From Aromatoleum evansii (GTDB lineage: Bacteria; Pseudomonadota; Gammaproteobacteria; Burkholderiales; Rhodocyclaceae), in contig NZ_WTVK01000035.1 in NCBI RefSeq assembly GCF_012910805.1, positions 1 to 61,001 on the forward strand: a stretch of DNA of 61,001 bases, in the 5' to 3' direction. How positions within the stretch are numbered: position 1 is the first letter of the stretch; every line of letters begins with the position of its first letter. Below are positions 67-33,795 of the stretch, in pieces. The translations under genes and the position numbers were made by a program. Below the pieces are notes generated by a model that was given only the letters and a program-made list of their open reading frames with translations, was not told the origin of the DNA and did no database searches.

Positions 67-462
67 ATGATCTCTCGTCTCGCCCTCCATCACCTCGCTG
101 TCGGCCTGGCAATCATCGCAGGACTGTTTCTTGCTGGCACTCCGGCACGCGCGGAGTATGCCGACGTCGTGCTGAACAGATATGCGGAAAAGGAAGGGAT
201 GCGACCGGTGATCTTCCCTCACTGGTTCCATCGCATACGTTTCCGCTGCAAGGTCTGTCATGCGGAACTGAACTTCAAGATGCGCGCAGGCTCGAACGCC
301 GTCAAGATGTCGGACATCATTGACGGCCGGTTCTGCGGCGCCTGCCACAATGGGGAAATTGCATGGTCGGTGGAAAATTGCGACTTGTGTCATTCGGGCA
401 AGGCAGGACTGCCGCCCGGGATTTTCGGCGGCCATGAGACCCTCGGCCCCGGGCGCTGGTAG
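67..462 (+). CDS. c7-type triheme cytochrome c (copy 1)
   Basis: Small exported electron-transfer protein (131 aa) of the c7/'nanowire' triheme family. Residues 1 to about 29 form a Sec signal peptide ending in ARA. Three heme-attachment motifs follow: CKVCH (61-65), CGACH (90-94) and CDLCH (105-109), with the conserved FPHWFHR segment supplying distal histidines. It is a close paralogue of the gene at 6637, sharing most residues between the signal peptide and the third heme, but its C-terminus (after about residue 112) is unrelated. The next gene starts inside its last 29 bases. Its promoter is missing because the contig begins 66 bases upstream. Function as a periplasmic electron carrier is inferred from family. 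Confidence 0.9.
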   Translation: MISRLALHHLAVGLAIIAGLFLAGTPARAEYADVVLNRYAEKEGMRPVIFPHWFHRIRFRCKVCHAELNFKMRAGSNAVKMSDIIDGRFCGACHNGEIAWSVENCDLCHSGKAGLPPGIFGGHETLGPGRW

Positions 463-1417
463 CGCAACAACAGGGTTTTGCCGGCGAATAGTCAACCGGT
501 TCTTCGCGCTGGCGGTGGTGGTAGCGACATCGGGCGCCGCAGCGGCAGATTCGCCCCCGTTCGATCCCCGACCGTTCCTGACGCCGCAGGAGTCGATCCT
601 GGGCGGGTTCGGATCCCCGCCGTCTCCGCTGCCGATCCGCACGCCCACCGGTTCTTACCTCAAGCTTCTTCATCCGTCGGCAGTGGCCGCGAACGGCCCT
701 GACTTGTACGTTGCGGACAGCGGACGACGCTTGCTGCTTCGTATCGACACGGTGACGAAAGCGATCACGCCTCTCCGCGAAATCACTGCCGCACCGGGTA
801 TTCGTCTGGAGACCGACCGCGATGGGAGCGTCTACCTCCTTCAGCCGAACCAGGCGAGCGTCGAGCGTATAAGTCGCGACGGACGACGAATCAGCCTGTT
901 CTCGTCCGAATTCGAAATCCTTCAGCCTGCCGACATCGCCGTCGAACGCTCGCAGGGACGCCTGTGGATGTCCGACAGGGCAGGTGGTGTCTTCGCGTTC
1001 CATCCGTCGGGAAGGATGGAGCAGTCGCTGCTCGAGCGGAACGACGGGTTTCCCGACGAGCTTGCCGGCGCAACCCTTCTTGCCGCCGACCGACTCGGCA
1101 TTGTCGGGATTGACCCTCGCTGCCGCTGCCTCATCGCCTTCGGACCGGATGGCGCGTATTCGGGACACTTCGGCGACGGCGAACTGATCGATCCGGTCGA
1201 CCTGGCGATCGACACGCATGGACGTGTGTGGGTGATCGATCGCGGAGACCGTCTGCTGAAGATCTTTGTGGGACGGCAGCGCGTGGGCGCAATTCAGGCG
1301 GCCAGTCTCGGGCTGGTGGAAATGACCGCCCTGACGATCGACGGATTCCAGGCGTACATCTCCGATGCGCAAGGTGGCAAGATAGCGGTCTTTGCAGTCG
1401 TACCCCCCAGACCATGA
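434..1417 (+). CDS. Exported NHL-like beta-propeller protein
   Basis: A 327-residue exported protein. I chose the ATG at 434 because it gives an N-terminus with a basic stretch (residues 17-21), a hydrophobic core and an AAA-A cleavage site near residue 38; it overlaps the cytochrome before it by 29 bases. The mature part has repeating blocks of the type 'DLYVADSGRRLLLRID', 'GRLWMSDRAGGVFAF' and 'GRVWVIDRGDRLLKI', spaced about 40-50 residues as in six-bladed NHL propellers. No enzyme motif is visible. It is translationally coupled (ATGA overlap) to the following NHL lipoprotein, so the two probably act together with the triheme cytochrome, perhaps as scaffold or docking proteins. Confidence 0.8.
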   Translation: MRPSAPGAGSATTGFCRRIVNRFFALAVVVATSGAAAADSPPFDPRPFLTPQESILGGFGSPPSPLPIRTPTGSYLKLLHPSAVAANGPDLYVADSGRRLLLRIDTVTKAITPLREITAAPGIRLETDRDGSVYLLQPNQASVERISRDGRRISLFSSEFEILQPADIAVERSQGRLWMSDRAGGVFAFHPSGRMEQSLLERNDGFPDELAGATLLAADRLGIVGIDPRCRCLIAFGPDGAYSGHFGDGELIDPVDLAIDTHGRVWVIDRGDRLLKIFVGRQRVGAIQAASLGLVEMTALTIDGFQAYISDAQGGKIAVFAVVPPRP

Positions 1418-2520
1418 GACTTCGGCAAATTCCGTCGACTGCGATCATCGCGGCGACACTCGCTGTCGTCGCCCTGCTGAGTAGCGGGTGCGCAACCCAG
1501 TCCGTCCCCGCGCGACTGCACTATGGCCTCACCGACGCCCCCGAGGGCAAACGCCTCATGTGGCCAGCCGAGCCGGAAGTGCCACGCTACCAGTTCGCCG
1601 GACAGCTGACCGGCGAAGCGAATTTCGTTCGGGACGAGGAGACGACGAGTGGCGTGGTCAGGTTTCTCGCCTGGGTCGTAGGCCTGTTCGAAGAGGAAAA
1701 GCCGAACGTGCTGGAGCGCCCCCAGGCCGTGGTGGCCGACAGTCAGGAACGGATATTCGTCACCGACGTCAGCCGCGCAGCCGTCTTCGTGTTCGACAAA
1801 CCTGCGGGAGAGTTGAAGATCTGGGAATACGCGGTGGGGCTGCGGCGGTTCCTCGCCCCCATCGGCGTCACCCTCGCGGAGGGGGGCGGCATCTGGGTTT
1901 CCGATGCGGAATTGCAGCTCGTCGCACATCTGGACGCACAAGGTAATCCGCTGCCACCCATCGGCACGGGAGTCTTGCAGCGACCGACCGGGATCACACG
2001 CGATCCGGCCACCGGCCTGATTTACGTCGCGGACACCTACGCCCACGACATCAAGGTTTTCAGTCCCGACGGGCGTCTCGAGCGGATCATCGGCGAGCGC
2101 GGCGAGGCGCCCGGTGAATTCAACTTCCCGACTCATTTAGCGCTCGGACAGGGCAAGCTCTACGTCACCGACACGATGAACAGCCGTGTGCAGGTGATCC
2201 CGCTCGAGGGTGACGAAAAACCGCAGGTCATCGGCAAGCGCGGACTCTACTACGGCAATCTCGTTCGGCCGAAAGGCGTCGGTGTCGATAGCGAGAACAA
2301 TATCTACGTCGTCGAGTCTTATTACGACAACTTGCTGATTTTCAACGAGGCCGGGGATTTTCTGATGCCGATCGGCGGCGTCGGCCAGGGATCCGGCAAT
2401 TTCTATCTTCCGGGTGGAGTGTGGGTCGATTCCTTCAATCGCGTGTTCGTGGCGGATACGTTCAATGGACGAGTGACGATCTTCCAGTATCTCGGCGGAG
2501 CGAAGTCCGACGCGGAATGA
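1414..2520 (+). CDS. NHL-repeat lipoprotein
   Basis: A 368-residue predicted lipoprotein: a basic N-terminus and hydrophobic stretch end in a lipobox LSSGC with the acylated cysteine at about residue 26. The ATG at 1414 overlaps the stop codon of the previous gene (ATGA), which supports the start. The rest is a six-bladed NHL propeller with clear repeats such as 'GLIYVADTYAHDIKVFSPDG', 'GKLYVTDTMNSRVQVI', 'NNIYVVESYYDNLLIF' and 'NRVFVADTFNGRVTIF'. It probably sits on the outer or inner membrane facing the periplasm. NHL propellers mostly bind proteins or ligands; there is no catalytic signature. Its place between a cytochrome and cytochrome-maturation genes suggests a structural or assembly role. 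Confidence 0.85.
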   Translation: MRLRQIPSTAIIAATLAVVALLSSGCATQSVPARLHYGLTDAPEGKRLMWPAEPEVPRYQFAGQLTGEANFVRDEETTSGVVRFLAWVVGLFEEEKPNVLERPQAVVADSQERIFVTDVSRAAVFVFDKPAGELKIWEYAVGLRRFLAPIGVTLAEGGGIWVSDAELQLVAHLDAQGNPLPPIGTGVLQRPTGITRDPATGLIYVADTYAHDIKVFSPDGRLERIIGERGEAPGEFNFPTHLALGQGKLYVTDTMNSRVQVIPLEGDEKPQVIGKRGLYYGNLVRPKGVGVDSENNIYVVESYYDNLLIFNEAGDFLMPIGGVGQGSGNFYLPGGVWVDSFNRVFVADTFNGRVTIFQYLGGAKSDAE

Positions 2521-2538
2521 CGGGGCCCAAGCCGCAGG

Positions 2539-3549
2539 ATGCTTAGCGTCGTCAAGGAGGAAAGGGCTGCGCGACGCGCGGCGGGCGCGAGGCTATTGCG
2601 CCTCGCTGCTTCGCTTCGCCTGACCCTCGCCCTGATCGCGCTGCTCGGTTTCGGGGTCGCGTTTGCCTATCTGCGTGAAGACGCCCGCACGTGGCCACTG
2701 GTCGTCCCGCTCATCCTGTTGGCATTCAACCTGCTAGCCGCGGTACTCACCAACGGGGTCTTTCGACGCCAGACCGCGCTGCTGGTCTTCCATCTCGCGC
2801 TCATCGTGCTGCTGCTTCTCGTTGCCGCCGGCCGGCTTAGCTACCTCACCGGCTACGTCGGCGTCACCGAAGGCGTGCCTTTCGACGGCACGCTCGCCGA
2901 GTCGCAGCGGGGGCCTCTGCATGCAGGCGACATTGCGCAGGTGCGTTTCGTGAACAAGGGCTTCAGCATCGACTACGCGCCCGGGCTCCAGCGTGGCGCC
3001 ACTCGCAACGCGGTCGCCTGGAGCGAGGGGAACGGGCGCTGGCATGAGGAAATGATCGGTGACCAGACGCCTCTGGTGCTGTCCGGCTACCGCTTCTACA
3101 CCACGTTCAACAAGGGATTCGCCCTGACCTTCCTCTGGCGCGACGCTCACGGCAACGATTTCCTCGGATCGGTTCAGCTCCCTCCCTACCCCCTCAAGGA
3201 GTACAGCCAGGCCGCAGCATGGAGCCCGCCGGGGAGCACTCTGTCGATCTGGGTGATGCTGGATATCGACGAAGTCTTGCTCGACCCCGCCGAACATACT
3301 TCTTTCCGCCTGCCGGAGCGCTACAAGTTGATCGTTCGCATCGGCGATGACCGCCATGAACTGCGCCCCGGAGACTCGCTCCAAACAGCCGAGGGCACCC
3401 TGGAATTCGAGGGGCTGCGCAACTGGATGGGATATCGCGTGTTCTACGACTGGACCCTGCCGTGGCTTCTTGCCGCCTGCGCCGTCGCGGTTGCCAGCCT
3501 GGGCGCGCATTTCTGGCTGAAATTCTCGGCCAGGCCGTGGGATGCTTGA
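2539..3549 (+). CDS. ResB/CcsB-like cytochrome c biogenesis protein (short form)
   Basis: A 336-residue membrane protein of the ResB (CcsB) family, the heme-handling partner in system II cytochrome c maturation. Three membrane segments occupy about residues 22-100, then a large periplasmic domain (about 105-308) with the family phrase 'LSGYRFYTT' and 'GTLEFEGLRNWMGYRVFYD', and a final membrane segment (about 310-330). It is shorter than typical ResB proteins (about 450-700 aa). The next gene, CcsA-like, overlaps it by eight bases, forming the usual CcsB-CcsA pair. The presence of a system II pair beside a complete system I (ccm) operon in the same window is unusual and suggests dedication to the local cytochromes. 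Confidence 0.8.
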   Translation: MLSVVKEERAARRAAGARLLRLAASLRLTLALIALLGFGVAFAYLREDARTWPLVVPLILLAFNLLAAVLTNGVFRRQTALLVFHLALIVLLLLVAAGRLSYLTGYVGVTEGVPFDGTLAESQRGPLHAGDIAQVRFVNKGFSIDYAPGLQRGATRNAVAWSEGNGRWHEEMIGDQTPLVLSGYRFYTTFNKGFALTFLWRDAHGNDFLGSVQLPPYPLKEYSQAAAWSPPGSTLSIWVMLDIDEVLLDPAEHTSFRLPERYKLIVRIGDDRHELRPGDSLQTAEGTLEFEGLRNWMGYRVFYDWTLPWLLAACAVAVASLGAHFWLKFSARPWDA

Positions 3550-4363
3550 AATGGAACTTGAACTGCAGATCCTCTGGGCCGCGGTGACGGCCTACGTGCT
3601 TGCCGGCATCGTTGCCGTCGTGGGTGTCGTTCTGGGAAAGAAGCCGGAACGTTCGGTACTCGCGCTGATGCTTGCCGGGCTCTCGCTGCAGACCATCTCG
3701 ATCGGGCTGCGCTGGGACCGCCTGGGGCACGGCCCTTTCATCACGATGTTCGAGATCCTGTGCTCGAACGTCTGGAGCCTGATGACGGCCTACATCCTCG
3801 CCTACTGGCGCATCCGCCGGATCCGCGCCACCGCCGCCGTCGTGATGCCCATCATGTTCATCATGCTGGGCTGGCTGATGGTCGCGCACCCTGGCGAAGG
3901 GCATTACCCCCCGACCTACAACACCCCCTGGCTGTACATCCATATCGGACTGGGCAAGGTTTTCCTCGGCGCCGTGCTCGTGGCCGTCGGACTGTCATGC
4001 ATCATTCTCATGCGCCACGCGGGTCTCGGCCGCCAACGTCTCGCACAGCTGCCGGCCAGCCCCCAACTCGACGAGCTCGCGTTCCGCTGCATGGCAATCG
4101 GGCTGATCTTCCATACCTTGATGCTCATCGCGGGTGCGATCTGGGCCCAGGATGCCTGGGGCCGTTACTGGGCCTGGGATCCGCTGGAAACCTGGGCCTT
4201 CATCACCTGGCTGACGGTCGCATTCACGATACACGCCCGGCTCGCCTACCGTCTTTCTCCACCGGTGCATGCCGGCCTGATCCTGGCCGTGTTCGTGACC
4301 GCCTTCCTCACCTTCTTCGGCGTGCCCTTCGTTTCCGTCGCCCCGCACCAGGGAGCCGTATGA
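3542..4363 (+). CDS. CcsA/ResC-like cytochrome c assembly protein
   Basis: A 273-residue polytopic membrane protein (about eight segments) of the CcsA/CcmC/CcmF superfamily. The diagnostic tryptophan-rich heme-binding (WWD) loop is present at about residues 204-222 (WGRYWAWDPLETWAF), and an N-terminal 'GPFITMFEILCSNVWSL' segment matches the CcsA signature. Conserved histidines for heme are seen at 'YIHIGLGK' and 'IFHTL'. With the overlapping ResB-like gene it would deliver heme across the membrane and ligate it to apocytochromes. The stop overlaps the next start (ATGA), so the CcsB-CcsA-oxidase-like-TPR genes are one operon. Confidence 0.87.
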   Translation: MLEMELELQILWAAVTAYVLAGIVAVVGVVLGKKPERSVLALMLAGLSLQTISIGLRWDRLGHGPFITMFEILCSNVWSLMTAYILAYWRIRRIRATAAVVMPIMFIMLGWLMVAHPGEGHYPPTYNTPWLYIHIGLGKVFLGAVLVAVGLSCIILMRHAGLGRQRLAQLPASPQLDELAFRCMAIGLIFHTLMLIAGAIWAQDAWGRYWAWDPLETWAFITWLTVAFTIHARLAYRLSPPVHAGLILAVFVTAFLTFFGVPFVSVAPHQGAV

Positions 4364-5676
4364 TGATGCGCACGTCAGACCGGCCGTCGGACGTTTCCCA
4401 TCGCTGGCTCCTTGTTGCCGCCACCTCGCTCGGCTTGTCGTCGCTCGCTGCCGCCGCCCTCGTGCTCGCGCGCACGCCGGTACTCACATCGCTCGTCCCG
4501 TCCGACAGCTTCCCGCGCGCGCTGGTGGTCCATGTGAACCTCGCTACTCTGCTGTGGTACTTCGCGATGGCGAGCGCGCTGTGGAGCGAGACACTGGACA
4601 CAGGACGCGAGCGGTTGGCGCGGCCGATTCAACTCGCCGGCACGGCCGGGGCCGCGGGCATCATCCTCGCCGGTCTCTTCGCACCGGGGCCTCCGGTGCT
4701 CGCCAATTACGTTCCCTACATCGACCATCCGCTGTTCCTCGGTTCGCTAGCCCTGCTCGCCTTCGCTGCGGTCGCGACCGCTGCACTATCGCTGAGCCGC
4801 CCGCGTGACGCCGCCGAATGGGGATTCGCGATTGCCCGTGTGCCCTTCCTCCTGGCGGCCCTCTACCTCATCGCCGCATTGCGCCAGGAGATGGGGCTGA
4901 TCGACGCCCTGTGGGGAGCGGGCCATATCCTGCAGTTCGGTTTCGTCACCTTGATGATGGCGATCTGGCTACGCCTCGCTCAGCGGGCCGGCACCGACGG
5001 TATTCCCGCACGCACGGCGATCCCCCTTTTCGCCGCAGCGTCCCTGCCGGCACTCATCGCGCCTGCGCTGCTCGTCGCCGGCATCGAGCACGGCACCCTG
5101 CATGGACTGCACACGCACATCATGCGCTGGGCGAACTGGCCGGCGCCGCTGGTGTTCGGCCTGCTGTTGCTGTTTCGCCCGCGCGCCGCCAGTGCGGTCG
5201 CGTTTCCTGCATCACTGGGGCTATATTGCATCGGCATTGTCGCCGGAACCGCCATCGACGACCAGACGACCCTTATCCCGGCCCATTATCACGGTACAAT
5301 CGGCGCCTTCACGCTCGCCCAGATGGCAGCAGTCCTGGCCCGACTCACGCCCTCGGCGGATGCGCACGGAGCCCGGGGGCCGACCCGCCGACCGCTGACG
5401 CTCTATGCATTAGGAACAGCGATGCTCATCTGCGGCCTGGCATGGAGCGGCATCCTCGGCGCACCACGCAAGACGGGCTTCAGTGCTGCAGACGCGGACC
5501 CGACCGCGATCCTCGCAGCGGCGCTCACGGGCTTGGGAGGTGCGGTCACCATCGCCGGCGTCGCCTTTTTCGCACTCGTTGCCGCACCCCGGATAGTCAG
5601 ATTATGCAGATCACGCACAGCCCCGATGCCGCAGAACAACCAAGGCACCGCCACGATGTTCGCAGCCGCGCGCTAG
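4360..5676 (+). CDS. Heme-copper oxidase subunit I-like membrane protein, orphan
   Basis: A 438-residue protein with roughly twelve membrane segments. Local motifs recall heme-copper oxidase subunit I: 'VVHVNLATLLWYF' (a helix II-like heme-ligand histidine), 'GAGHILQFGF', a histidine-rich 'EHGTLHGLHTH' and 'IPAHYHGTIGAFTLAQMA', which resembles the segment holding the high-spin and low-spin heme ligands. No subunit II, III or CcoO/CcoP gene is next to it. Three ATG codons in a row begin the gene; the first overlaps the ccsA-like stop. It may be a divergent oxidase or a heme-binding membrane partner of the system II pair. The family assignment is made from motifs only. Confidence 0.6.
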   Translation: MMMRTSDRPSDVSHRWLLVAATSLGLSSLAAAALVLARTPVLTSLVPSDSFPRALVVHVNLATLLWYFAMASALWSETLDTGRERLARPIQLAGTAGAAGIILAGLFAPGPPVLANYVPYIDHPLFLGSLALLAFAAVATAALSLSRPRDAAEWGFAIARVPFLLAALYLIAALRQEMGLIDALWGAGHILQFGFVTLMMAIWLRLAQRAGTDGIPARTAIPLFAAASLPALIAPALLVAGIEHGTLHGLHTHIMRWANWPAPLVFGLLLLFRPRAASAVAFPASLGLYCIGIVAGTAIDDQTTLIPAHYHGTIGAFTLAQMAAVLARLTPSADAHGARGPTRRPLTLYALGTAMLICGLAWSGILGAPRKTGFSAADADPTAILAAALTGLGGAVTIAGVAFFALVAAPRIVRLCRSRTAPMPQNNQGTATMFAAAR

Positions 5677-6221
5677 TCATCACGCTATTGACCACCATTG
5701 CGCTGGGCGGGCTGTTGGCGCTGCCCGCCCAGCGCGAAGACAGGCAGTCCGCGAAGCCTCTCGCCTTCGCGGACATACTGCCGCTCAAGGCCCGCAGCCC
5801 CGCCAGCGATGCAGCCACCCTCCAGGAGGTCCGGGCGCGTTTCGAGCAGGGCGTGGCAATGCTCCACATGCGCCAGTACGAATACGCCCTCACCGCATTC
5901 CATCAGGTGCTGGCGCTGGCCCCCGAACTTCCCGAAGCGCACGTCAATATGGGTTTCGCACTCGTCGGACTCGAGCAGTGGAAACACGCGCGCGATTTCT
6001 TCGAATCGGCGATCAACCTGCGGCGCGATCAGGTGAACGCCTATTACGGCCTCGCCATCAGCCTCGAAGCACTCGGCGACCGTCCCGGTGCCATGGGTGC
6101 GATGCAGACTTACCTGCACCGTGCCGCACCGGACGATGCCTTCCGCGAACGTGCGGAATCGGCCCTGTGGGAGTGGCGTGCCGGTCCACGCGACGCCGCA
6201 GGCACTGCCGACGGACACTGA
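5604..6221 (+). CDS. Membrane-anchored TPR protein
   Basis: A 205-residue protein with one membrane segment near residues 24-42 and at least three tetratricopeptide repeats from about residue 70 to 175 (for example 'YEYALTAFHQVLALAPELPEAHVNMGFAL' type units split over two helices). The start at 5604 lies 73 bases inside the preceding gene, a long overlap that implies coupled translation. TPR proteins of this layout (compare NrfG or CcmI) often hold apocytochromes or assembly partners. It is the last gene of the operon that starts before the window, followed by a 415-base intergenic region. Confidence 0.75.
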   Translation: MQITHSPDAAEQPRHRHDVRSRALVITLLTTIALGGLLALPAQREDRQSAKPLAFADILPLKARSPASDAATLQEVRARFEQGVAMLHMRQYEYALTAFHQVLALAPELPEAHVNMGFALVGLEQWKHARDFFESAINLRRDQVNAYYGLAISLEALGDRPGAMGAMQTYLHRAAPDDAFRERAESALWEWRAGPRDAAGTADGH

Positions 6222-6301
6222 CGCGCAGCAAAGACCGAACCTGCGCCACCGCACCGAACGCGTCCGCGGTCGGGGGTACTCGCCGCGGGACCGCGCCACA
6301 A

Positions 6302-6319: not shown

Positions 6320-6329
6320 CCATTCCCGC

Positions 6330-6636: not shown

Positions 6637-7068
6637 ATGAAGCAGGTCCCGTGGGTAACAAGAGTCCGCCGTGGGCTCACCGCACTGCTGTTTGCAGTCG
6701 TGGCGATCACGCTGTGGACTCCGTCCGACAGCCGCGCAGAGTACGGCGATATCGTGATCAACAACTACGCCGACGCAGCCGGCATGCGCCCTGCGATCTT
6801 CCCCCACTGGTTCCACCGGATCCGCTTCCGCTGCAAGGTCTGCCACGCGGACCTGGGCTTCCAGTTCAAGGCTGGCGGCAACGAGATCACGATGCTGAAG
6901 ATCATCGACGGCCAGTTCTGCGGCGCATGCCACAACGGCGAGATCGCCTGGTCGGTCGAGAACTGTGACCTTTGCCACTCCGGCAAGCCCAACACCCCCA
7001 CGCAAGTGCACGAAAGCACCATCCAGAAACTGGCAGTTCCCGTCGGGCAAGGAGGTAGCAAGAAATGA
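6637..7068 (+). CDS. c7-type triheme cytochrome c (copy 2)
   Basis: A 143-residue exported triheme cytochrome. The signal peptide (1 to about 34) ends SRA-E. Heme motifs are CKVCH (66-70), CGACH (95-99) and CDLCH (110-114), with FPHWFHRIRF before the first heme. A ribosome-binding site AAGAGGG lies nine bases before the ATG. It is a close paralogue of the cytochrome at 67 up to the third heme, and has a different tail of about 29 residues. It is the first gene of the sigma54-promoted operon and overlaps the next cytochrome gene by four bases, so the two are probably made together and may form a periplasmic electron relay. Confidence 0.92.
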   Translation: MKQVPWVTRVRRGLTALLFAVVAITLWTPSDSRAEYGDIVINNYADAAGMRPAIFPHWFHRIRFRCKVCHADLGFQFKAGGNEITMLKIIDGQFCGACHNGEIAWSVENCDLCHSGKPNTPTQVHESTIQKLAVPVGQGGSKK

Positions 7069-7730
7069 CCCGCCGTATCTCTACCCTCTTCCTGACCGTC
7101 TTCGCGACCGGCCTGCTCGGGTCGGCAGCAGCCATCGCCCAGGACGCCAAGGGCAAACCCGCAGCGGCTGCGGCACCGGCCGCTGCCCCGGCAGCCGCCG
7201 CTCCGGCAACCGCCCCCGCCACCGACGTAAACCGCTTCAATCGCCTGCTGAAGCCCGCCAACCAGCGTAACCTGCCGCCGACGCAGGACGGCATCCATGA
7301 CCCGGCCAGCGAAGGCACCACGGCCCTCATGCCGCCGCTGTCGGCGTTCGAGACGCTGCCACGCAGCAACGCGGGGAACCGCGTGAACTGGGTCAAGGCC
7401 CTCGAAGATCGTGCGATCAACCCGCGCTGGGACCGCCTCGACCCCAATGCGGTGCCCGTCGTGATGGACCTCAACATCGTGCGCGAAGTCAAGGGCTCGA
7501 TGCCGGACGTGGTCTACCCGCACAAGCAGCACACCGAGTGGCTTGACTGCTCCAACTGCCACCCGGCAATCTTCATCCCGCAGAAAGGCGCCAACCAGAT
7601 CAGCATGGCGGCGATCCTGCTCGGACAGAAGTGCGGGGTTTGCCACGGCAAGGTTGCCTTCCCCGTGTCCGAGTGCCGTCTGTGCCACTCGAAGAAGAAG
7701 GACGGTCCGATCGCCCGTACGGGCCAGTAA
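7065..7730 (+). CDS. c7-type triheme cytochrome c with Ala/Pro-rich N-terminal region
   Basis: A 221-residue exported protein: signal peptide (1-25), a low-complexity Ala/Pro linker (about 30-52), a conserved domain of unknown role (about 55-140), then three heme motifs CSNCH (162-166), CGVCH (190-194) and CRLCH (204-208). The segment from the unknown domain to the third heme matches the distant gene at 52224-52892, with shared features such as VNW/VDW, 'PHKQHTEWLDC'/'PHRAHTEWLDC' and a conserved CxxCHxxVAF. The low-complexity linker is typical of a tethered or surface-reaching domain. Electron carrier in the same operon as copy 2. Confidence 0.9.
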   Translation: MTRRISTLFLTVFATGLLGSAAAIAQDAKGKPAAAAAPAAAPAAAAPATAPATDVNRFNRLLKPANQRNLPPTQDGIHDPASEGTTALMPPLSAFETLPRSNAGNRVNWVKALEDRAINPRWDRLDPNAVPVVMDLNIVREVKGSMPDVVYPHKQHTEWLDCSNCHPAIFIPQKGANQISMAAILLGQKCGVCHGKVAFPVSECRLCHSKKKDGPIARTGQ

Positions 7731-7772
7731 GTCGTCTGGATAGTCGGAAACATGCATGCCCGGGAGTCCGAA

Positions 7773-11893: not shown

Positions 11894-11927
11894 CGTCTCC
11901 CCCTCAGGCGAATTGATCAGGCGCAGA

Positions 11928-13692: not shown

Positions 13693-14220
13693 TCAGTGCC
13701 CGCTCCCCTTCGAGCCACCGAGGAAGGATCGCGCGCCCGGATGCCCATGATCCGCAGCGGAGCGAATCCAGCGCATCGCCTCCTCCTGGTCCTGCACTAC
13801 CCCCTTGCCCGCCAGGAACAGCAGCCCGAGGCCATACTCCGCTTCGGCATGCCCCTTGCGTGCAGCTTCGAAATACCAGCGCGCAGCCTCCTGGTCCGGG
13901 TCTTGCACGGACTTCGGCAGCTTCTCCCCGAACACGTACATGTTGCCAATGAAATACATGGCATCGAGATTTCCCTGATCGGCGCTGCGGCGCGCCCACT
14001 GCAGTGCCTTGTCCTCGTCCTCCGGAACGCCACGCCCATAGAAATACATGATCGCAAGCCTTTCCTGCGCTACGGGATTCCCCCCCTCGGCAAGCGGCGC
14101 GAGTTGCTGGGCGGCGGCCTCGAACTGGCCGCCATCGTAGTGGCGAAGCGCATCCTCGATGGGAGCGGCATGCACGGCTCCGGCCAGCAACATCATGCAA
14201 AAGGAAAGACGACGCAACAT
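13693..14220 (-). CDS. Sel1-repeat exported protein
   Basis: A 175-residue protein with a short signal peptide (cleaved after VHA, residue 18) and about four Sel1-like repeats, for example 'AQERLAIMYFYGRGVPEDEDKAL' and 'AEYGLGLLFLAGKGVVQDQEEA' type units. Sel1 repeats form solenoids that bind partner proteins. It is the first gene of the minus-strand operon running to the multicopper oxidase, starting 79 bases from the predicted -12 element. Another Sel1 protein (17485) is on the other side of the kinase/regulator pair. Confidence 0.82.
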   Translation of the reverse strand: MLRRLSFCMMLLAGAVHAAPIEDALRHYDGGQFEAAAQQLAPLAEGGNPVAQERLAIMYFYGRGVPEDEDKALQWARRSADQGNLDAMYFIGNMYVFGEKLPKSVQDPDQEAARWYFEAARKGHAEAEYGLGLLFLAGKGVVQDQEEAMRWIRSAADHGHPGARSFLGGSKGSGH

Positions 14221-14472: not shown

Positions 14473-16026
14473 ATGAACACGATCTTCAGCACCGCCGACG
14501 GTCTCGACGACATGACCGACGACGATACTCAACCGACGGAACAGCCCGGGCGGCCGTCGCGCTCGCTGTCGCTCCGCGCGAAGGGGATCATCGCCTTCAT
14601 CCTGATGGTTGCGTACTCGCTGCTGATCGGCGTATCCACCGAAACGCAGCGGCAGGGCCTGCTCAGAGTGGTCGATGAACTCGAGATGGCCCATCGCACC
14701 GAAGCCCAGCTCCTCGAGATCAACACCTCGATGGCGCGCACGCTGTTCGCGGTGAACATGAGCTTCTCCGACGACGACCTGGCATCGTCGGCAATCCGCT
14801 CCATGATCGAGGTGGAAGCCAGTCTGTCCCTGCTCGAAGCGATACAGAACCGCCATCCGACGGTCCTCATGCTTTCCGGGAAGCTGCATGCCCTGGTGCG
14901 CGACCTCGCGCAATCGCCGACCCTCAGCACGCTCGATGTGGCACGCTCGACGCTCAACGAGCTGATCATCGAACTCGATGGCGTGACCAAGAACGCTCAC
15001 GCGCACCGGCTGAAGCTGCTCGACCAGTACCGCGAAAATTACGATCGCATTACACTCAGCAGTTTGGCCATGCTCGTGATCGGACTGATCCTGGTCGGCG
15101 CGGTTACTGCGATATTTTTCAGCCGCCTGACCTGGGACATCCGCAAGCTCGAAGCGCATGCACACGGGATCGTGAACGGAAACCGCGATGCGCCTCTGCC
15201 GGTCACGCGCAATGACGAACTGGGAACGCTGATGCACGCCGTCAACCGCATGCAGCAGGATCTGCGCGAGCGCGAGCGGCACATCGAGCGCGCGCGCCTC
15301 GAGCAGTTCCATCGCGAAAAGATGGTGGCTGTCGGCTCGCTCGCCGCGCAACTCGCGCATGAGATCAACAATCCAATCGCTGCGATCACCGGAGTGGCCA
15401 GCGCGATGAGCCAGGTACAGCAATCACAGCAATGCCCCAACCACGGTGTTTCCTGCCACCCCGGGCTGATACTCGAGCAGGCACGGCGCATCTCGGCCAT
15501 CACGCGGCAGATCGCCGACTTCACGCGACCACAGGCCCAGCGCCCGGAATTGCTCAACCTCAATGAACTCGTGAGCAACACCTGCGCCTTCGTGAGCTAC
15601 GACCGGCGCTTCCGGCGCATCGCGATGACCACCGAGCTCGACGGAGAGATGCCGGCCTTGAGGGCGATCGGCGATCACCTGACACAAGTGCTGATGAACC
15701 TCCTGTTCAACGCTGCGGATGCCCTCGAGGACATGCCGGCTGATCACCCCGCGAGGATCCTCGTACGCACGCAGGCACTCGAGCACGAGGCGTTGGTGGA
15801 GATCACGGACAACGGCGCCGGCGCGGACGCCGATACGCTCGTAAAGGTGTTCGACGAGTACTTCACGACAAAACCGGCCGGAAAGGGCACCGGCCTGGGA
15901 CTTTCCCTCAGCCGCGAACTGATCGAGGATGCGGGGGGCTCCCTCACGCTCGATTCCGAACCCGGCAAGGGCGCGACTGCACGCATTCGCCTGCCCCTGC
16001 GCCCGAACGGGCAAACTGACAACTGA
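14473..16026 (+). CDS. Membrane sensor histidine kinase (NtrB-type partner of the sigma54 regulator)
   Basis: A 517-residue kinase: membrane segment about 38-54, periplasmic helical domain about 58-193, second membrane segment about 195-215, HAMP (216-270), then the H-box LAHEINNP with the phosphorylated His at about 296. ATPase motifs follow: N box 'LMNLLFNAADAL', G1 'DNGAG', F 'VFDEYFTTKP', G2 'GKGTGLGLS'. Between H-box and N box there is an odd insert QQCPNHGVSCHPG with Cys321, His324, Cys328 and His329, which could bind metal or heme or respond to redox state. The response regulator follows 32 bases later. The pair sits in the centre of the cytochrome locus and is the obvious candidate to control it. 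Confidence 0.9.
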   Translation: MNTIFSTADGLDDMTDDDTQPTEQPGRPSRSLSLRAKGIIAFILMVAYSLLIGVSTETQRQGLLRVVDELEMAHRTEAQLLEINTSMARTLFAVNMSFSDDDLASSAIRSMIEVEASLSLLEAIQNRHPTVLMLSGKLHALVRDLAQSPTLSTLDVARSTLNELIIELDGVTKNAHAHRLKLLDQYRENYDRITLSSLAMLVIGLILVGAVTAIFFSRLTWDIRKLEAHAHGIVNGNRDAPLPVTRNDELGTLMHAVNRMQQDLRERERHIERARLEQFHREKMVAVGSLAAQLAHEINNPIAAITGVASAMSQVQQSQQCPNHGVSCHPGLILEQARRISAITRQIADFTRPQAQRPELLNLNELVSNTCAFVSYDRRFRRIAMTTELDGEMPALRAIGDHLTQVLMNLLFNAADALEDMPADHPARILVRTQALEHEALVEITDNGAGADADTLVKVFDEYFTTKPAGKGTGLGLSLSRELIEDAGGSLTLDSEPGKGATARIRLPLRPNGQTDN

Positions 16027-16058
16027 ACTGGACAGCATCCACATCACAAGGGAATTCG

Positions 16059-17474
16059 ATGCACATACTGGTCATCGACGACGAGCGCGCCGTCCGGGAG
16101 ATTCTCGCTGACGCCTGTCGGCAGGCGGGCTACTCCGTCGACGAGGCGCGCAATTGCACTGAAGCCGCATCCAAGCTTGTCCGAGGAGACGTCGACCTGG
16201 CACTTTGCGACATCAAGATGCCCGACGGCAACGGTGTCGATCTCATGCGGTCGATCAAGGAGTCGGGGGTCGAGACCAACTTCATCATGGTCACGGCATT
16301 CGCCTCGATGGAATCGGCGGTGGAGGCGCTCCGACTGGGGGCGTCCGACTACGTGACGAAGCCGTTCAACGTCGAGGAGCTGTTGCACCGCGTGCAACAG
16401 ATCGCCGCACTGCGCGGACTGCGCGAGGAAAACCGCGTTCTGCGCAAGTTCGCCAAGGCAGACTCGGACAAGTTCCGCTTCACTTCGCCCTCCATGGCCG
16501 CCGTCGAGCGGCTTGCCGGCAAGGTCGCACCGACCGACAGCACGGTTCTGATCACCGGCGAGTCCGGAACCGGCAAGGGAGTTCTCGCCCGCCTGATCCA
16601 CGAGCAGAGTCGGCGCAGCGAACACCTGTTCCTTCCGGTCAACTGCAGCGCCATTCCCGAAACGCTGATGGAGGCGGAGTTCTTCGGCCACACCAAGGGG
16701 GCCTTCACGGGCGCCGACAAGGCACGCAAGGGCCTGTTCCTCCAGGCCGACCTCGGGACTCTCTTCCTCGACGAGGTCGGCGAACTGCCGATGCTCATGC
16801 AGACCAAGCTCCTGCACGCCATCGAGGAAAAGGAAATCCGTGCCGTCGGCAGCGAACAGTCGCGTCGCGTCGACTGTCGCATCATTGCGGCGACCAACCG
16901 CGACCTGAGCCAGATGGTCAAGGAGGGCACTTTCCGCGAGGACCTCTTCTTCCGCCTGAGCATGTTCCACATCCACATCCCCCCCTTGCGGGAGCGCCAG
17001 GAAGATATCCGCGGCCTCATTCGCTTTATCCTCGACCGCGCGCGCGACCAGCGCGACGCGGCGACCTGCCTGACCGTATCCGACGAGGTTGAACGACTGC
17101 TGATCGGCTACCCGTGGCCGGGCAACGTTCGCCAGATGGAAAACGTCATCAATCGCGCATGCATTCTTGCCGAGGACAATTGCATCACCCTTGATGACCT
17201 TCCGCCCGAGATTGCGCGCACCGTTTCGCTCGCAACGGCCCATGGCACATCCATTGCTACCCAGCGGAGCTTGCGCGACCAGTTGCGCGACTTCGAGGCG
17301 AGCGTGATCTACCGCATGCTGGATGAAACTGGCGGAGACAGGCGCACGGCGGCCCAGAAACTCGGGATCGGGCTGTCGAGCCTCTACCGGAAGCTGGAGG
17401 AGTTTGAGGCATTTGGCATTCACAGGAGCGGCGCTGGCAATACCGGCTCGGCTCACGACTCCAACTTCGACTAA
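16059..17474 (+). CDS. NtrC-family sigma54-dependent response regulator
   Basis: A 471-residue regulator with three domains. The receiver (1-120) has acidic residues D7/D8, phospho-acceptor D51 ('LCDIKMPDG') and K101. The AAA+ domain (about 143-375) has Walker A GESGTGKG (167-174), the sigma54-contacting loop GAFTGA (214-219), Walker B 'TLFLDEVGEL' and the arginine-finger region 'FREDLFFRL'. A C-terminal Fis-type helix-turn-helix (about 427-452, 'RRTAAQKLGIGLSSLYRKL') binds DNA. It needs RpoN-dependent promoters, and such promoters with upstream palindromes are found before the neighbouring cytochrome, ccmC2 and Sel1 operons. Only an 11-base gap separates it from the next gene. Confidence 0.93.
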   Translation: MHILVIDDERAVREILADACRQAGYSVDEARNCTEAASKLVRGDVDLALCDIKMPDGNGVDLMRSIKESGVETNFIMVTAFASMESAVEALRLGASDYVTKPFNVEELLHRVQQIAALRGLREENRVLRKFAKADSDKFRFTSPSMAAVERLAGKVAPTDSTVLITGESGTGKGVLARLIHEQSRRSEHLFLPVNCSAIPETLMEAEFFGHTKGAFTGADKARKGLFLQADLGTLFLDEVGELPMLMQTKLLHAIEEKEIRAVGSEQSRRVDCRIIAATNRDLSQMVKEGTFREDLFFRLSMFHIHIPPLRERQEDIRGLIRFILDRARDQRDAATCLTVSDEVERLLIGYPWPGNVRQMENVINRACILAEDNCITLDDLPPEIARTVSLATAHGTSIATQRSLRDQLRDFEASVIYRMLDETGGDRRTAAQKLGIGLSSLYRKLEEFEAFGIHRSGAGNTGSAHDSNFD

Positions 17475-17484
17475 GGAAGCCTGA

Positions 17485-18141
17485 ATGAAATCTCTCGGAA
17501 CTGGGAATTTAGTTCTCACTTTCAGACAGCTGTTTGCGACCTGCGCATTGCTCGTTGCGTCGTCGGTTGCCTATGGGAGCAGCGAGGACGACTACAAAAA
17601 GGGCTTGGCTGCCTACGATGCCGGCGACCTCGTCGGCGCGATGGTCCCACTGAAGCAGGCCGCGGACGAAGGCCACGCCGGCGCCCAGGCGCTTTACGGG
17701 ACCATTCTCGACAGCGCGGAACTCGATGACCAGGCGGTGCTTTACTTACGTAAGTCTGCCGATCAGCAGAACTCGGAAGGCCAGTACGGTCTGGCCAAGA
17801 TGTTCATGACGGGCGAAGGCGTCACCGCCGACTTCGGCGAAGCCAACAAGCTCATGCGCGCCGCGGCGGCGCAAGGACATCGCAGCGCCATCATCACGCT
17901 GGGTCTCGCCTATATCGCAGGTGACGCGCGTTTCGAGGCCAGTGACAAGACCAGCCCGGAAGCCCGCGACTTCATCCTCAAGGCAGGCGAGTTCGGGGAG
18001 CTTACGGCCGTCGAGGCGGTCGCTCGCGCCTACCGGGAAGGCGCCTTCGGCATCGCGCCCGACTCCGCCAAGGCCAAGGAATGGGACGAAAAGCTCGCCA
18101 AGATCCGTGGCGCGCAGCGCAAGAAGGGAGACAGACGATGA
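17485..18141 (+). CDS. Sel1-repeat exported protein (second)
   Basis: A 218-residue protein with a signal peptide (cleavage near YGS, about residue 31) and four to five Sel1 repeats ('GAQALYGTILDSAELDDQAVLYL', 'EGQYGLAKMFMTGEGVTADFGEA' type units). GGAAGC precedes the ATG. It continues the regulator operon and overlaps the following cytochrome gene (ATGA). It probably acts as a periplasmic partner-binding solenoid like the protein at 13693. Confidence 0.82.
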   Translation: MKSLGTGNLVLTFRQLFATCALLVASSVAYGSSEDDYKKGLAAYDAGDLVGAMVPLKQAADEGHAGAQALYGTILDSAELDDQAVLYLRKSADQQNSEGQYGLAKMFMTGEGVTADFGEANKLMRAAAAQGHRSAIITLGLAYIAGDARFEASDKTSPEARDFILKAGEFGELTAVEAVARAYREGAFGIAPDSAKAKEWDEKLAKIRGAQRKKGDRR

Positions 18142-18446
18142 TCCGCTCAGCAGTCGCGCTCGTCTGCGCCGTGTTTTCCGTGCTCACGAGTCCCGCACAG
18201 GCGGCCAACGTGATGGCGGGCCAGCAGATCTACATGCAGTACTGCGTCGGTTGCCACGGCGTCGGAGGCCAGGCCGTGCTACCCAATGCACCGCACTTTT
18301 CCCGGGGTGAGCGGCTGATGCAACCCGATACCATGCTCATGATGTCCATCCGGACTGGCAAGCAGTCCATGCCTTCGTTCAACGGCATCCTTCGCGATCA
18401 GCAAATTCTTGACGTAATCGCCTATCTACGGACCCTTCAACGATGA
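18138..18446 (+). CDS. Class I monoheme cytochrome c
   Basis: A 102-residue exported cytochrome: signal peptide (cleaved after AQA near residue 20), one heme motif CVGCH (36-40) and a later methionine ('KQSMPSFNGIL') expected as the distal ligand, followed by the usual C-terminal helix 'DVIAYLRTLQ'. This is the typical small soluble periplasmic carrier with a fairly high potential, unlike the bis-histidine triheme proteins nearby. It overlaps both neighbours (ATGA at each end), so it is tightly coupled with the Sel1 and propeller genes. Confidence 0.92.
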   Translation: MIRSAVALVCAVFSVLTSPAQAANVMAGQQIYMQYCVGCHGVGGQAVLPNAPHFSRGERLMQPDTMLMMSIRTGKQSMPSFNGILRDQQILDVIAYLRTLQR

Positions 18447-19516
18447 CCCTAGACCTGCAACACGCTCGGCGCGCTCTGGCCGCCGTCGGTTTGTCCCTCA
18501 CCTGTTTCAGCAGCACCGCTCTCGCGCAGGCAACGGCCGCGGACTATCGCGTACGCGAGACGTTCAATGTCGGCGACACCGTGTACGTGCGTGCACTTAC
18601 CGTCGAAAAAAATACGATGTGGGTAGGCACCTCGGCCGGCGTGCATGAGATCGACCTCGCCACGCGAAAGCCGCGCAATACCTTCACCCGTGCCGACGGC
18701 CTGGCAAACGAATACGTGTTTGCGGTCGGCATCGACAGCCAGGGCTACAAGTGGTTCGGAACGAACGCCGGTGGGGCCTCGCGCTACAAGGACGGCAAGT
18801 GGAAGACCTATTTCCCCATGCACGGCCTGGCCGACTACTGGATCTACTCCTACGCCAATGACAAGGACGGCAACCTCTGGATCGGCACCTGGGCGGGCGT
18901 CAATCACTTCAACGTCAAGACCGGGGAGTTCAAGAAGTACGTCAAGGAGCTGATCAACGAGTGGGTGTACGGGCTCGACGTGGATGCCAAGGGGCGCGCG
19001 TGGTTCGCGACCGAAGGCGGCGTGTCGATGTTCGACGGCAAGACCTGGAAGTCGTGGACCCACAAGGACGGCCTCGGCGCACCGAACGCAGACCAGCTCC
19101 CTGCGTCGAGCAATACCGGCCTCGGTACCCGTTCGCGCCACGACCTCACGACCATGGAACACGGTCAGCCGACCTACAACCCGAACTATTCCTTCGCAAT
19201 GCATATCGACCCTCAGGGCAACGCATGGGTCGGCACATGGGGCGGCGGGGTCGCGCGCTTCGACGGGAAGACCTGGACGAACTACAACAGCAAGGACGGC
19301 CTCGTCGGGAATATCGTGTACTCGATCGCACAGGACAAGCAAGGCGTGTTCTGGTTCGGAACGGACAAGGGCGTATCGCGTTTCGACGGCAAGAAGTGGC
19401 AGTCATACACGACCAAGGAAGGCCTGCTTGATTCCCACGTCTATACGATCGCCGCTACCGACAACGGTGACATCTGGGTTGGCACACGTCGCGGCGTGGC
19501 AATCATCGGCAAGTAA
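18443..19516 (+). CDS. Exported 'regulator propeller' protein (copy 1)
   Basis: A 357-residue exported protein (signal peptide 1 to about 29). The mature part consists of repeated Reg_prop-type blades: 'NLWIGTWAGVNHFN', 'RAWFATEGGVSMFDG', 'NAWVGTWGGGVARFDG', 'VFWFGTDKGVSRFDG', 'DIWVGTRRGVAII', each followed by a 'W..YT..DGL' stretch. These blades normally form the sensor of hybrid two-component proteins; here there is no membrane or kinase part. It is strongly similar in blade design to the gene at 19597. Possible roles are ligand sensing for the nearby kinase or a docking scaffold for cytochromes. Confidence 0.85.
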   Translation: MTLDLQHARRALAAVGLSLTCFSSTALAQATAADYRVRETFNVGDTVYVRALTVEKNTMWVGTSAGVHEIDLATRKPRNTFTRADGLANEYVFAVGIDSQGYKWFGTNAGGASRYKDGKWKTYFPMHGLADYWIYSYANDKDGNLWIGTWAGVNHFNVKTGEFKKYVKELINEWVYGLDVDAKGRAWFATEGGVSMFDGKTWKSWTHKDGLGAPNADQLPASSNTGLGTRSRHDLTTMEHGQPTYNPNYSFAMHIDPQGNAWVGTWGGGVARFDGKTWTNYNSKDGLVGNIVYSIAQDKQGVFWFGTDKGVSRFDGKKWQSYTTKEGLLDSHVYTIAATDNGDIWVGTRRGVAIIGK

Positions 19517-19596
19517 ATGAGCAATCAGACTCGTCCCGGCCCGGCTCGGATATCGCGCTCCGGACGACAATCGGAACTTAAAGTGGAGTCTTTCGC

Positions 19597-20799
19597 ATGA
19601 GTTACAAAGTTGCAGCCGTCGCCACCATCGTCGGCGCCGTCGCGATCGTCGGCGCATATACGCTGGGCCAGCAGCAGAGCAAGGCGCCGTCGCCCGCACC
19701 CGTCGCCAGCGCACCGGCCGGCACCCACGCCGCGACCGGCGGACAGGAAGTTCGCGAAGGAAAGGTGGGCGTCGATCCGAACGAAAAATTCACCCACTTC
19801 CGCGTCGGCAACAAGAACGTAAAGAAGATCTATGCGGATCAGGGCGTAGTCTGGGTCGCCACCTCCGGAGGCGTCATCCGTTACGACACACGCACCGACA
19901 AGTTCAAGCTCTACGACAACCAGACCGGACTGCTGTCGAACGGCATGTTCTACGTTGGCCGCGTCCAGGGCAAGATCACCGTGGGTACGTACGGCGGCGG
20001 AATGTCCATGCTCGACGAGGCCACGGGCACCTGGGAAACCTACAACATCCCCGAGGGACTCGGAGATGCGTTCGTTTACGACGTGGTTGAAACGCGCACG
20101 GGCGACATCTGGATCGCCACCTGGTCCGGCGTGAATCGCGTGCGCGGCGGAAAGCTCAAGGATCCGTCGGCCTGGGAACTCTACACCGTCGAGAACACCG
20201 ACGGCGGCCTGCCCAACGACTGGGTGTACGGCCTGGCGGAGGGCAAGAACGGCGAGATGTGGCTTGCCACCGAAGGCGGGATGGCACGCTTTGTCGAGGG
20301 CAAGTGGGATAACTGGAACCACGCACGCGGGATCGGGGCGGATTACGAGAGGGTGAAGCAGGCGATCACGTTCAAGAGCGACCCCGCGAAGGAATCGCTG
20401 CACCACGCGCAACAGAAGCGCGAGATGGGACTCGAAGGGATCGATCAGGCTTACAACCCGAACTACATCATCTCGCTGGTCGTCGACGCCGATGGCACCG
20501 TGTGGTCCGGCACCTGGGGTGGCGGCCTGGCCCACTTCGACGGCGAGAAGTGGACGAATTACACGACGACCGAAGGCCTGCCCGGCAACCATGTCTTCAT
20601 GCTGCACCGCGATCAGCAGAACCGCCTGTGGGTGGGCACGAACAGCGGTCTTGCAGTCAAGGAAGGCAACCAGTTCCGCATCATGAAGTCTTCCGATGGC
20701 CTGTTCAACGACACCGTGTTCTCGATGACGACGACCAAGGAAGGCGACCTCTGGATCGGCAGCTACGGCGGGGTGGCGCATATCCGCCCGGCCAGCTGA
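19597..20799 (+). CDS. Membrane-anchored 'regulator propeller' protein (copy 2)
   Basis: A 400-residue protein with an N-terminal hydrophobic segment (about 4-22) followed by an Ala/Pro linker, so it may stay anchored rather than be cleaved. Blades are of the same Reg_prop type as the previous gene ('VVWVATSGGVIRYD', 'DIWIATWSGVNRV', 'EMWLATEGGMARF', 'TVWSGTWGGGLAHFDG', 'RLWVGTNSGLAV', 'DLWIGSYGGVAHI'). The central insert 'AYNPNYI' corresponds to 'TYNPNYS' in copy 1, confirming a duplication. A ribosome-binding site GTGGAG is 9 bases before the ATG. It ends the locus and is followed by a strong terminator. Confidence 0.85.
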   Translation: MSYKVAAVATIVGAVAIVGAYTLGQQQSKAPSPAPVASAPAGTHAATGGQEVREGKVGVDPNEKFTHFRVGNKNVKKIYADQGVVWVATSGGVIRYDTRTDKFKLYDNQTGLLSNGMFYVGRVQGKITVGTYGGGMSMLDEATGTWETYNIPEGLGDAFVYDVVETRTGDIWIATWSGVNRVRGGKLKDPSAWELYTVENTDGGLPNDWVYGLAEGKNGEMWLATEGGMARFVEGKWDNWNHARGIGADYERVKQAITFKSDPAKESLHHAQQKREMGLEGIDQAYNPNYIISLVVDADGTVWSGTWGGGLAHFDGEKWTNYTTTEGLPGNHVFMLHRDQQNRLWVGTNSGLAVKEGNQFRIMKSSDGLFNDTVFSMTTTKEGDLWIGSYGGVAHIRPAS

Positions 20800-33794: not shown

Positions 33795-33795
33795 T

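Follow-up and report, generated by a model that had tools for sequence, protein, structure and literature searches.

A conserved cytochrome locus of Aromatoleum evansii with a probable role in extracellular electron transfer

What might a bacterium do with a cluster of genes that encodes small multiheme cytochromes, propeller proteins, heme-handling proteins and a regulator of its own? The question is raised by bases 67 to 20799 of a 61,001-base stretch of DNA from Aromatoleum evansii, here called the window, which is the entire contig C259 of a draft genome of 5.94 Mb in 330 contigs. A preliminary description had proposed an undescribed periplasmic electron-transfer system, and every gene class that it named was found (Table 1): three triheme c7 cytochromes, a class I cytochrome, two NHL and two Reg_prop propellers, two Sel1-repeat proteins and a TPR protein, together with two heme-maturation modules (ResB/CcsA and CcmC/TlpA), a multicopper oxidase, helical proteins and a sigma-54 two-component system. 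Gene content, conservation, homology, the conservation of heme-ligand positions and the enrichment of promoter-like sites were computed, and as judged from the sequence the block makes up the right-hand portion of a larger conserved locus cut by the contig end. This locus probably serves extracellular electron transfer, with an OmcE-type conductor, c7 carriers, and its own heme maturation and regulator. The results support the idea that the genes form an electron-transfer system and that maturation and regulation are part of it; we discuss below why its location is likely to be other than first thought.

The locus beyond the contig end

The left edge of the block, at base 67, is an artefact of the assembly, since the contig begins with adapter sequence: bases 1–19 read AGATGTGTATAAGAGACAG, which occurs once in the window and which we take to be the Nextera mosaic end. 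An adapter-like sequence with one base different also stands at positions 1–19 of contig C299 (stretch L038), and the assembly was incompletely trimmed. In G044, a complete genome of the same genus, the genes run on beyond the block: next come a further c7 cytochrome (c7_0) and an 825-residue barrel-like protein, then a PpiC/SurA-type isomerase and two tetraheme cytochromes with an NHL protein between them, and finally two multi-heme class I cytochromes. Contig C25 of the own genome carries a PpiC/SurA-type prolyl isomerase, OmcE1, NHL3 and OmcE2, ordered as in G044, and its end, inspected by eye, encodes the start of a predicted outer-membrane barrel protein. The whole G044 barrel, used as a query, found no match in the own genome, which fits an assembly gap that interrupts the barrel gene; by comparison with G044, this gap would contain c7_0 and the remainder of the barrel gene, some 3.3 kilobases. 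The 825-residue protein is called a putative outer-membrane barrel from its look. Contig C299 encodes two 11-heme cytochromes, a second ResB/CcsA-like pair, whose ResB-like member was recognised by tblastn and has no Pfam match, and also a class I cytochrome that belongs to the locus and lies at the distant end of this contig. Within positions 1–13200 of L038 the 11-heme cytochromes are interleaved with non-cytochrome genes, the ResB-like/CcsA-like pair and a TPR match, and this gene order is the same in G044 and G009. The term periplasmic is therefore probably too narrow: with OmcE-type cytochromes, a prolyl isomerase and a predicted outer-membrane barrel protein among its further genes, the locus most likely extends its reach beyond the cell.

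The two tetraheme proteins carry most of this argument. OmcE1 and OmcE2 match PDB entry 7tfs, presumably the OmcE filament of Geobacter sulfurreducens, with E-values of 1.8e-28 and 6.9e-16, respectively, which places both as OmcE homologues over the regions that bear the hemes, and both match a second entry, 9yuq, more weakly. An alignment of 16 of 19 copies of OmcE1 (G009, G065 and G516 were left out) shows four CxxCH motifs and four further histidines, candidate distal heme ligands, all of them invariant and in register with OmcE; the frames of G009 and G065 also have four CxxCH motifs each. OmcE-type subunits are described in an excerpt of one study as forming extracellular polymers in which hemes are coordinated across subunits (PMC9473688). 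A further OmcE-like cytochrome, with five hemes, lies on contig C267 (L039, 9773–10663, minus strand) beside a frame that looks by eye like an NHL propeller, and this region is possibly a second, smaller locus.

The best PDB match of c7_2 is the four-domain c7 protein 3ov0 (E=4e-41), followed by the single or double domains 3oue, 3ouq and 1rwj and then by two weak hits (E up to 1); we take 3ov0, 3oue, 3ouq and 1rwj all to be the GSU1996 dodecaheme c7 protein. In this search of c7_2 alone the closest structure was not a Ppc protein, Ppc structures being presumably present in the PDB. A methionine shortly before the second CxxCH of c7_2 is common to all four 3ov0 domains, and we assume that it ligates heme in that family. 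All three c7 proteins of the block score above the curated TIGR04257 cut-off of 40 bits, and far outside the block the window holds a fourth c7-type triheme protein (52224–53072, minus strand, 63.6 bits).

Domains of the c7 type are typically periplasmic carriers, and this general knowledge favours a purely periplasmic side-chain, in which c7 and OmcE-like cytochromes inside the outer membrane would feed an acceptor such as the periplasmic nitrate reductase (Nap). The napC/B/H/A genes adjoin the ccm genes of the window, and in G044 and G028, too, the locus has nap matches nearby. Against this, the conserved partners include OmcE-family cytochromes, an isomerase and a protein predicted to be an outer-membrane barrel. 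In the stretches fetched, moreover, nap matches are limited to the own genome (G000), G044 and G028, so that we regard an entirely periplasmic chain as improbable.

Conservation and distribution

The preliminary description would have fallen if the block were a chance assembly, and its conservation was upheld. Among 121 genomes of the family, OmcE1 was found in 13 (E up to 1e-8), eight of them strong matches (the own genome and seven at 51–68%) and five weaker; c7_2 was found in 11 (E up to 1e-5), comprising the same eight as strong matches (73% or more) and weak ones in G012, G089 and G116. Reg1 occurs in 14 family genomes, strongly in nine, namely seven of the eight with strong OmcE1 and c7_2 matches plus G012 and G089; it is missing from G030, where the contig ends inside the locus. 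At an E-value of up to 1e-15, c7_2 matched 13 of 349 genomes of the order (G316 and G331 being weak or c7_1-like) and 23 of 398 of the phylum; the own genome and G377 are in both sets, which leaves 33 other genomes.

Ten of those 33, picked by c7_2 alone, provided the distant loci, and all ten share OmcE1, the isomerase, c7_3, c7_0, c7_1, HelA, NHL2 and an 11-heme gene. Synteny and co-occurrence in the family and distant loci rule out a chance assembly. With the eight family genomes, which were chosen by OxL (an oxidase-like protein discussed below), OmcE1 or c7_2, they make up 18 locus genomes, where c7_2 is universal by choice. OmcE1, the isomerase, c7_3, c7_1, HelA and NHL2 are present in all 18, c7_0 and the 11-heme proteins in 17, NHL3 and the class I cytochrome cI_B in 16, cI_A in 15 and the barrel in 14; contig ends lower some of these counts, and low-identity matches (kinase, TPR, Sel1) may inflate others. 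OmcE2, present in just nine, was dropped as a universal member.

When seven proteins were joined and their tree rooted at the midpoint, the branching agreed for the most part with kinship, except that G265 and G367 group with the two class-level genomes at a weak support of 0.598. Recent random horizontal spread was rejected on this ground, and old inheritance with loss fits at least as well. Plasmid carriage was rejected too, c7_2 having no match in the plasmid collection.

The same counts bear on a conduit without filaments, in which the barrel, the OmcE-like and the 11-heme cytochromes would form a porin–cytochrome complex with a purpose like that of MtrCAB or Oet. The barrel gene adjoins cytochrome genes, 11-heme proteins are nearly universal, and polymerisation is not obligatory for relatives in the OmcE family. 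Such a conduit nevertheless seems rather unlikely to us, as OmcE1 keeps all eight candidate heme-ligand histidines of a protein with a filament structure, and no MtrA-like decaheme gene was seen in the mapped locus with the queries used here. The locus barrel was also considered as an MtrB/PioB porin, and this was discarded for the two copies scanned, those of L022 and L026, which TIGR03509 failed to match at E up to 0.01.

Conduits of the latter kind do seem to exist in the organism. The own genome has four MtrB/PioB-type porins (contigs C16, C44, C221 and C267; L114–L117), each near matches with doubled CxxCH motifs, and external electron transfer is therefore plausible in this organism, which likely has other external electron conduits. 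In the draft genomes surveyed for porins, listed as at least 92% complete, an MtrB-type porin occurs in nine of the 18 locus genomes (the own and eight of the other 17) and in none of the remaining nine, so the locus can occur independently of an Mtr conduit; G100, a genome of the same genus that has no locus, has no MtrB-type porin either. Among the literature matches listed, none reports external electron transfer in Aromatoleum-type nitrate reducers.

The oxidase-like protein, heme maturation and regulation

OxL, which had been described as an orphan oxidase-like membrane protein, has no Pfam match by itself, and the assignment was borne out by a profile of 11 relatives (A2) that matches subunit I of ba3 oxidase with an E-value of 1.9e-9; COX1 is matched by six of the 11 relatives aligned, with an E-value of 1e-16 at best (limit 5). 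Histidines H58, H189, H309 and H311 are invariant across the 11 sequences. In the profile alignment histidine is kept at the ligand positions of transmembrane helices (TM) 2, 6 and 10, and none stands opposite the pair of TM7, in what we take to be the helix numbering of the oxidase ligands. OxL should bind heme. The CuB site is incomplete, and a working O2 reductase is unlikely as the TM7 pair is absent. A structure model from the single sequence was poor (predicted local distance difference test, pLDDT, 50.8) and was set aside.

In G028, G249 and G493 a single reading frame encodes both OxL and the TPR protein (L025 14522–16384, L099 3301–5343 and L107 3621–5345), and because they are fused in these three relatives they probably act together. 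It is quite possible, if short of probable, that the two are part of a cytochrome maturation machine that handles apocytochrome, heme or thiol redox, and stand outside the electron route. Their genes directly follow ResB–CcsA and often precede ccm genes, the fusion itself is in keeping with this, and the TPR protein weakly resembles the TPR domain of CcmI/CycH (PF23914, below cut-off). A maturation or thiol-redox role is also spoken for by distant OxL homologues outside the locus: of nine stretches with such homologues (G010, G041, G017, G066, G023, G069, G018, G029 and G001), four have an adjoining TlpA-like match (L055, L058, L060 and L061, in G041, G023, G018 and G029), and others have a fragment of a class I cytochrome or of a regulator, or a match to PilJ, nearby. 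These homologues, at about 30–35% identity in other family genomes, were rejected as a sign of the locus, having just scattered weak matches around them. On the other side, the histidines conserved at oxidase heme-ligand positions fit electron transfer equally, and no OxL was found in eight of the 18 locus genomes, of which some are truncated at contig ends. OxL may still be the point of electron entry.

The adjacent ResB and Cytochrom_C_asm proteins, both over their cut-offs, constitute a System II (CcsBA/ResBC) pair, and a ccm cluster lies beyond the block, in which ccmI, ccmH, ccmG-like, ccmD, ccmB and ccmA were named by family and ccmF, ccmC and the 148-residue gene (ccmE) by eye and position; ccmF, ccmH and ccmI occur in ten of the 18 locus genomes and the ccmG-like gene in eight.

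Regulation was approached through sigma-54 −24/−12 promoter-like sites, with a general consensus, weights and a threshold, the last set in an earlier scan of the whole window. Random windows, nearly 4000 of them, have a site in 2.4% of cases. Against this background, the 400 bases before Sel1 hold a site in seven of 15 loci (binomial P=2.7e-8), the window's own lying 242 bases before the gene, and those before OmcE1 in nine of 25 loci, paralogue hits included (P=4.2e-9); the sites before OmcE2 (7/22) are partly the same ones. Of 21 other gene families tested, three had a nominal excess, namely h11 (4/25, P=0.003, the same sites as OmcE1), the kinase (3/15, P=0.005) and CcmC (2/6, P=0.008), and the remaining 18 had none. 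In five of the seven loci checked (the window, L021, L090, L065 and L088) the site before Sel1 lies within the regulator's variable linker, where the amino acids are partly different; for L024 and L091 the script did not place it.

The mostly overlapping genes of the preliminary description were seen in part: overlaps exist at eight of the 20 listed junctions, two of these eight with uncertain starts, but the gaps reach 872 bases (the largest contains the second Sel1 gene) and the genes lie on both strands in several transcription units. NHL2 is possibly a lipoprotein, since LSSGC is seen by eye in its signal region, unflagged by a simple lipobox pattern. HelA has no match in Pfam or NCBIfam, and neither it nor HelB has a family match above cut-off; the HelA structure model was of modest quality (pLDDT 61.9), nothing in the PDB matched with an E-value of 0.001 or less, and no match to HelA was convincing overall.

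The multicopper oxidase, which probably starts at about 11890 with a twin-arginine translocation (Tat)-like signal noted by eye, had been counted as a member of the system, and it is not conserved. As they are found in three and two of the 18 genomes, respectively, this enzyme and the PilJ protein are not core members, and the enzyme is best seen as accessory. Its presence in the block is what would speak for the oxidation of iron or another metal donor driven by this enzyme; it also scores under the curated CopA and CueO cut-offs, and we hold such a pathway, of which the oxidase was rejected as the heart, to be very improbable. The oxidation of a metal or organic donor, suggested at first, is favoured by no result in particular.

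Table 1. Features of the block and of the DNA beside it in the window. Occurrence is the number of the 18 locus genomes (eight of the family, ten distant) with a match.
Feature	Position	Strand	Family match or remark	Occurrence
Sequencing-adapter sequence	1–19	none	contig end	
c7_1, triheme c7 cytochrome	67–462	+	TIGR04257, 68.9 bits	18/18
NHL1, NHL-repeat propeller	434–1417	+	PF01436, E=1.4e-6; start uncertain	12/18
NHL2, NHL-repeat propeller	1414–2520	+	PF01436, E=2.1e-27	18/18
ResB-like cytochrome c synthesis protein	2539–3549	+	PF05140, 44.7 bits (cut-off 24.6)	16/18
CcsA/ResC-type heme handling protein	3542–4363	+	PF01578, 101.9 bits	15/18
OxL, heme-copper-oxidase subunit I-like membrane protein	4360–5676	+	CuB site incomplete	10/18
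TPR protein	5604–6221	+	PF07719; start uncertain	12/18
c7_2, triheme c7 cytochrome	6637–7068	+	TIGR04257, 64.5 bits	18/18 (by choice)
c7_3, triheme c7 cytochrome	7065–7730	+	TIGR04257, 63.1 bits; Ala/Pro-rich N-terminal stretch	18/18
HelA, helical protein	7752–8702	+	signal-like N-terminus	18/18
Second CcmC-type heme protein	8918–9691	+	PF01578, 91 bits	6/18
TlpA/CcmG-like thiol-disulfide protein	9830–10465	+	PF08534	7/18
Multicopper oxidase	10475–12151	-	PF07732, PF00394, PF07731	3/18
PilJ N-terminal-domain protein	11928–12710	-	PF13675	2/18
HelB, distant HelA paralogue	12725–13600	-	21% identity to HelA in alignment	8/18
Second Sel1-repeat protein	13693–14220	-	PF08238, E=3.3e-28	
HAMP/HisKA sensor kinase	14473–16026	+	PF00672, PF00512, PF02518	11/18 (some matches low)
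Sigma-54 (NtrC-type) response regulator	16059–17474	+	PF00072, PF00158, PF02954	11/18
Sigma-54 −24/−12 promoter-like site	17243–17258	+	inside 3' end of regulator gene, upstream of Sel1-cytI-Reg1-Reg2	
Sel1-repeat protein	17485–18141	+	PF08238	13/18
cytI, class I monoheme cytochrome c	18138–18446	+	PF13442	13/18
Reg1, Reg_prop propeller	18443–19516	+	PF07494; no kinase domain found	13/18
Reg2, Reg_prop propeller	19597–20799	+	PF07494	13/18
ccmI, ccmH, ccmG-like, ccmF, 148-residue gene, ccmD/ccmC region, ccmB, ccmA	21186–28256	-		
napC/B/H/A, periplasmic nitrate reductase genes	28353–33893	-	adjoining ccm genes	
NarX-like kinase	35387–37417			

The proposed route and its known relatives

Protein location, the nature of the barrel, filament formation, the route and direction of electrons and the targets of the regulator are what we infer from these results, and they can be put together as follows. 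Four single-domain c7 proteins, three of them in the window, and the class I cytochromes would carry electrons across the periplasm. The OmcE-type tetraheme cytochromes encoded across the assembly gap on C25 would act as the outside conductor, perhaps as a filament. The PpiC/SurA-type isomerase, the predicted barrel and the NHL proteins may see to folding, export and anchoring of this conductor, and ResB/CcsA, CcmC, the TPR protein and the adjacent ccm genes to heme loading. OxL would either connect the c7 pool with the quinone pool or have its place in maturation, and expression of the OmcE genes and of the Sel1-cytI-Reg1-Reg2 operon may be switched on by the kinase/sigma-54 regulator pair.

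Several points weigh against extracellular electron transfer as the purpose of the locus. The barrel matches no known family or structure, with weak chance-level hits only; its last residue is aromatic in just six of the ten copies printed, its gene is interrupted by the assembly gap in the own genome, and the queries used here did not find it in three of the ten distant loci. The OmcE1 frame of G516 is broken in the assembly, with two CxxCH motifs in frame. OxL (ten of the 18 locus genomes), ccm genes (eight to ten), the kinase and regulator (11) and the Reg genes (13) fall short of universal occurrence, to which contig ends contribute; in G759 some 40 kilobases separate the halves of the locus; and the same-genus G100 has no match to OxL, OmcE1, c7_2 or Reg1, so that the locus is dispensable. 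The test for upstream sites was designed after some sites had already been seen, and the window as a whole has no excess of them (five against 3.3 expected). Finally, the role of OmcE in Geobacter is disputed, according to parts of two papers (PMC11077965, PMC12307469). With these points counted, we still consider extracellular electron transfer the probable function.

A more far-reaching version can be advanced only tentatively, as possible rather than probable: the locus may be a self-contained system for assembly and export of cytochrome nanowires across Pseudomonadota, in which a dedicated barrel and isomerase would export OmcE-type subunits, the NHL, Reg_prop and HelA proteins would assemble or anchor them, the CuB-less OxL would be a new entry from quinol to c7, and one sigma-54 switch would govern the whole. 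The secretion, assembly and cell wiring of cytochrome filaments is called an open question in part of a review (PMC12307469). An OmcE-type subunit with this gene set around it is found in several families of Pseudomonadota, which belong to more than one class, and the set offers the isomerase, the barrel, the NHL proteins, HelA and the Reg_prop proteins as candidates for filament secretion or assembly; if the export reading is true, the missing secretion machinery of cytochrome filaments would be found in it, and Aromatoleum-type nitrate reducers would have a path for electrons out of the cell. The locus predicts external electron transfer in these nitrate reducers, and the idea is directly testable in a cultivable carrier, Aromatoleum toluolicum (L029), where a scan that finds close relatives only gave a 70% match to OxL.

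As far as the literature search reached, the gene set is new. It was not recognised among the literature matches listed, of which the two most relevant, one about OmcE and one about ubiquitous cytochrome nanowires, may show gene neighbourhoods; it is not described in the portions seen of PMC12977616, PMC12246660, PMC12133095 and PMC10654088, and term searches of PMC11475568 returned nothing. The earlier statement that no named pathway has this gene set holds in that no full match was found, and gives way in so far as a triheme cytochrome, a ResB/ResC pair and OmcE are neighbours in Geobacter (excerpts of PMC2700814 and PMC7894505).

Partial likenesses can be drawn to several known systems. An operon of SEEP-SRB1 encodes a six-bladed propeller, 16- and 26-heme cytochromes and a prolyl isomerase (PMC5539420, in part), and in partners of anaerobic methanotrophic archaea (ANME) filaments are proposed, in an excerpt of PMC10553843, to work with porin conduits, Oet. 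The locus here resembles these in having an isomerase and a propeller next to large cytochromes, and differs from SEEP-SRB1 in that its cytochromes are OmcE-type tetraheme and 11-heme proteins, whereas genes for 16 or 26 hemes were not seen in the mapped loci; the likeness to the Oet conduit is one of description. As in MtrAB/PioAB and in PCC3 and PCC4, which part of PMC5566968 lists as further barrel–cytochrome clusters, an outer-membrane barrel appears to be encoded with multiheme cytochromes, whereas the two barrel copies scanned lack a match to the MtrB/PioB model; PCC3 and PCC4 are known to us by description. The c7_2 protein is like the GSU1996 dodecaheme protein in matching all four domains of 3ov0, and unlike it the c7 proteins of the locus are separate single-domain proteins rather than one four-domain chain. 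OxL shares with subunit I of ba3-type heme-copper oxidases the histidines at the TM2, TM6 and TM10 ligand positions and lacks the TM7 pair of the CuB site.

The closest known arrangement is that of Geobacter, where ppcA (GSU0612), ResB (GSU0613), ResC (GSU0614) and omcE (GSU0618) have neighbouring numbers, and where the authors suggest that ResB/ResC pairs serve nearby cytochromes (excerpts of PMC2700814 and PMC7894505). The periplasmic triheme proteins PpcA–E are reported, in part of another study, to charge OmcS filaments (PMC10954620). The two loci have in common a triheme cytochrome, a ResB/ResC pair and an OmcE-family tetraheme cytochrome nearby, in a comparison that covered ppcA, ResB, ResC and omcE. 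Set against that group of genes, c7_2 matches domains of GSU1996 type and not PpcA structures, and the set described here includes a predicted barrel, an isomerase, NHL and Reg_prop propellers, OxL–TPR, HelA and a sigma-54 regulator.

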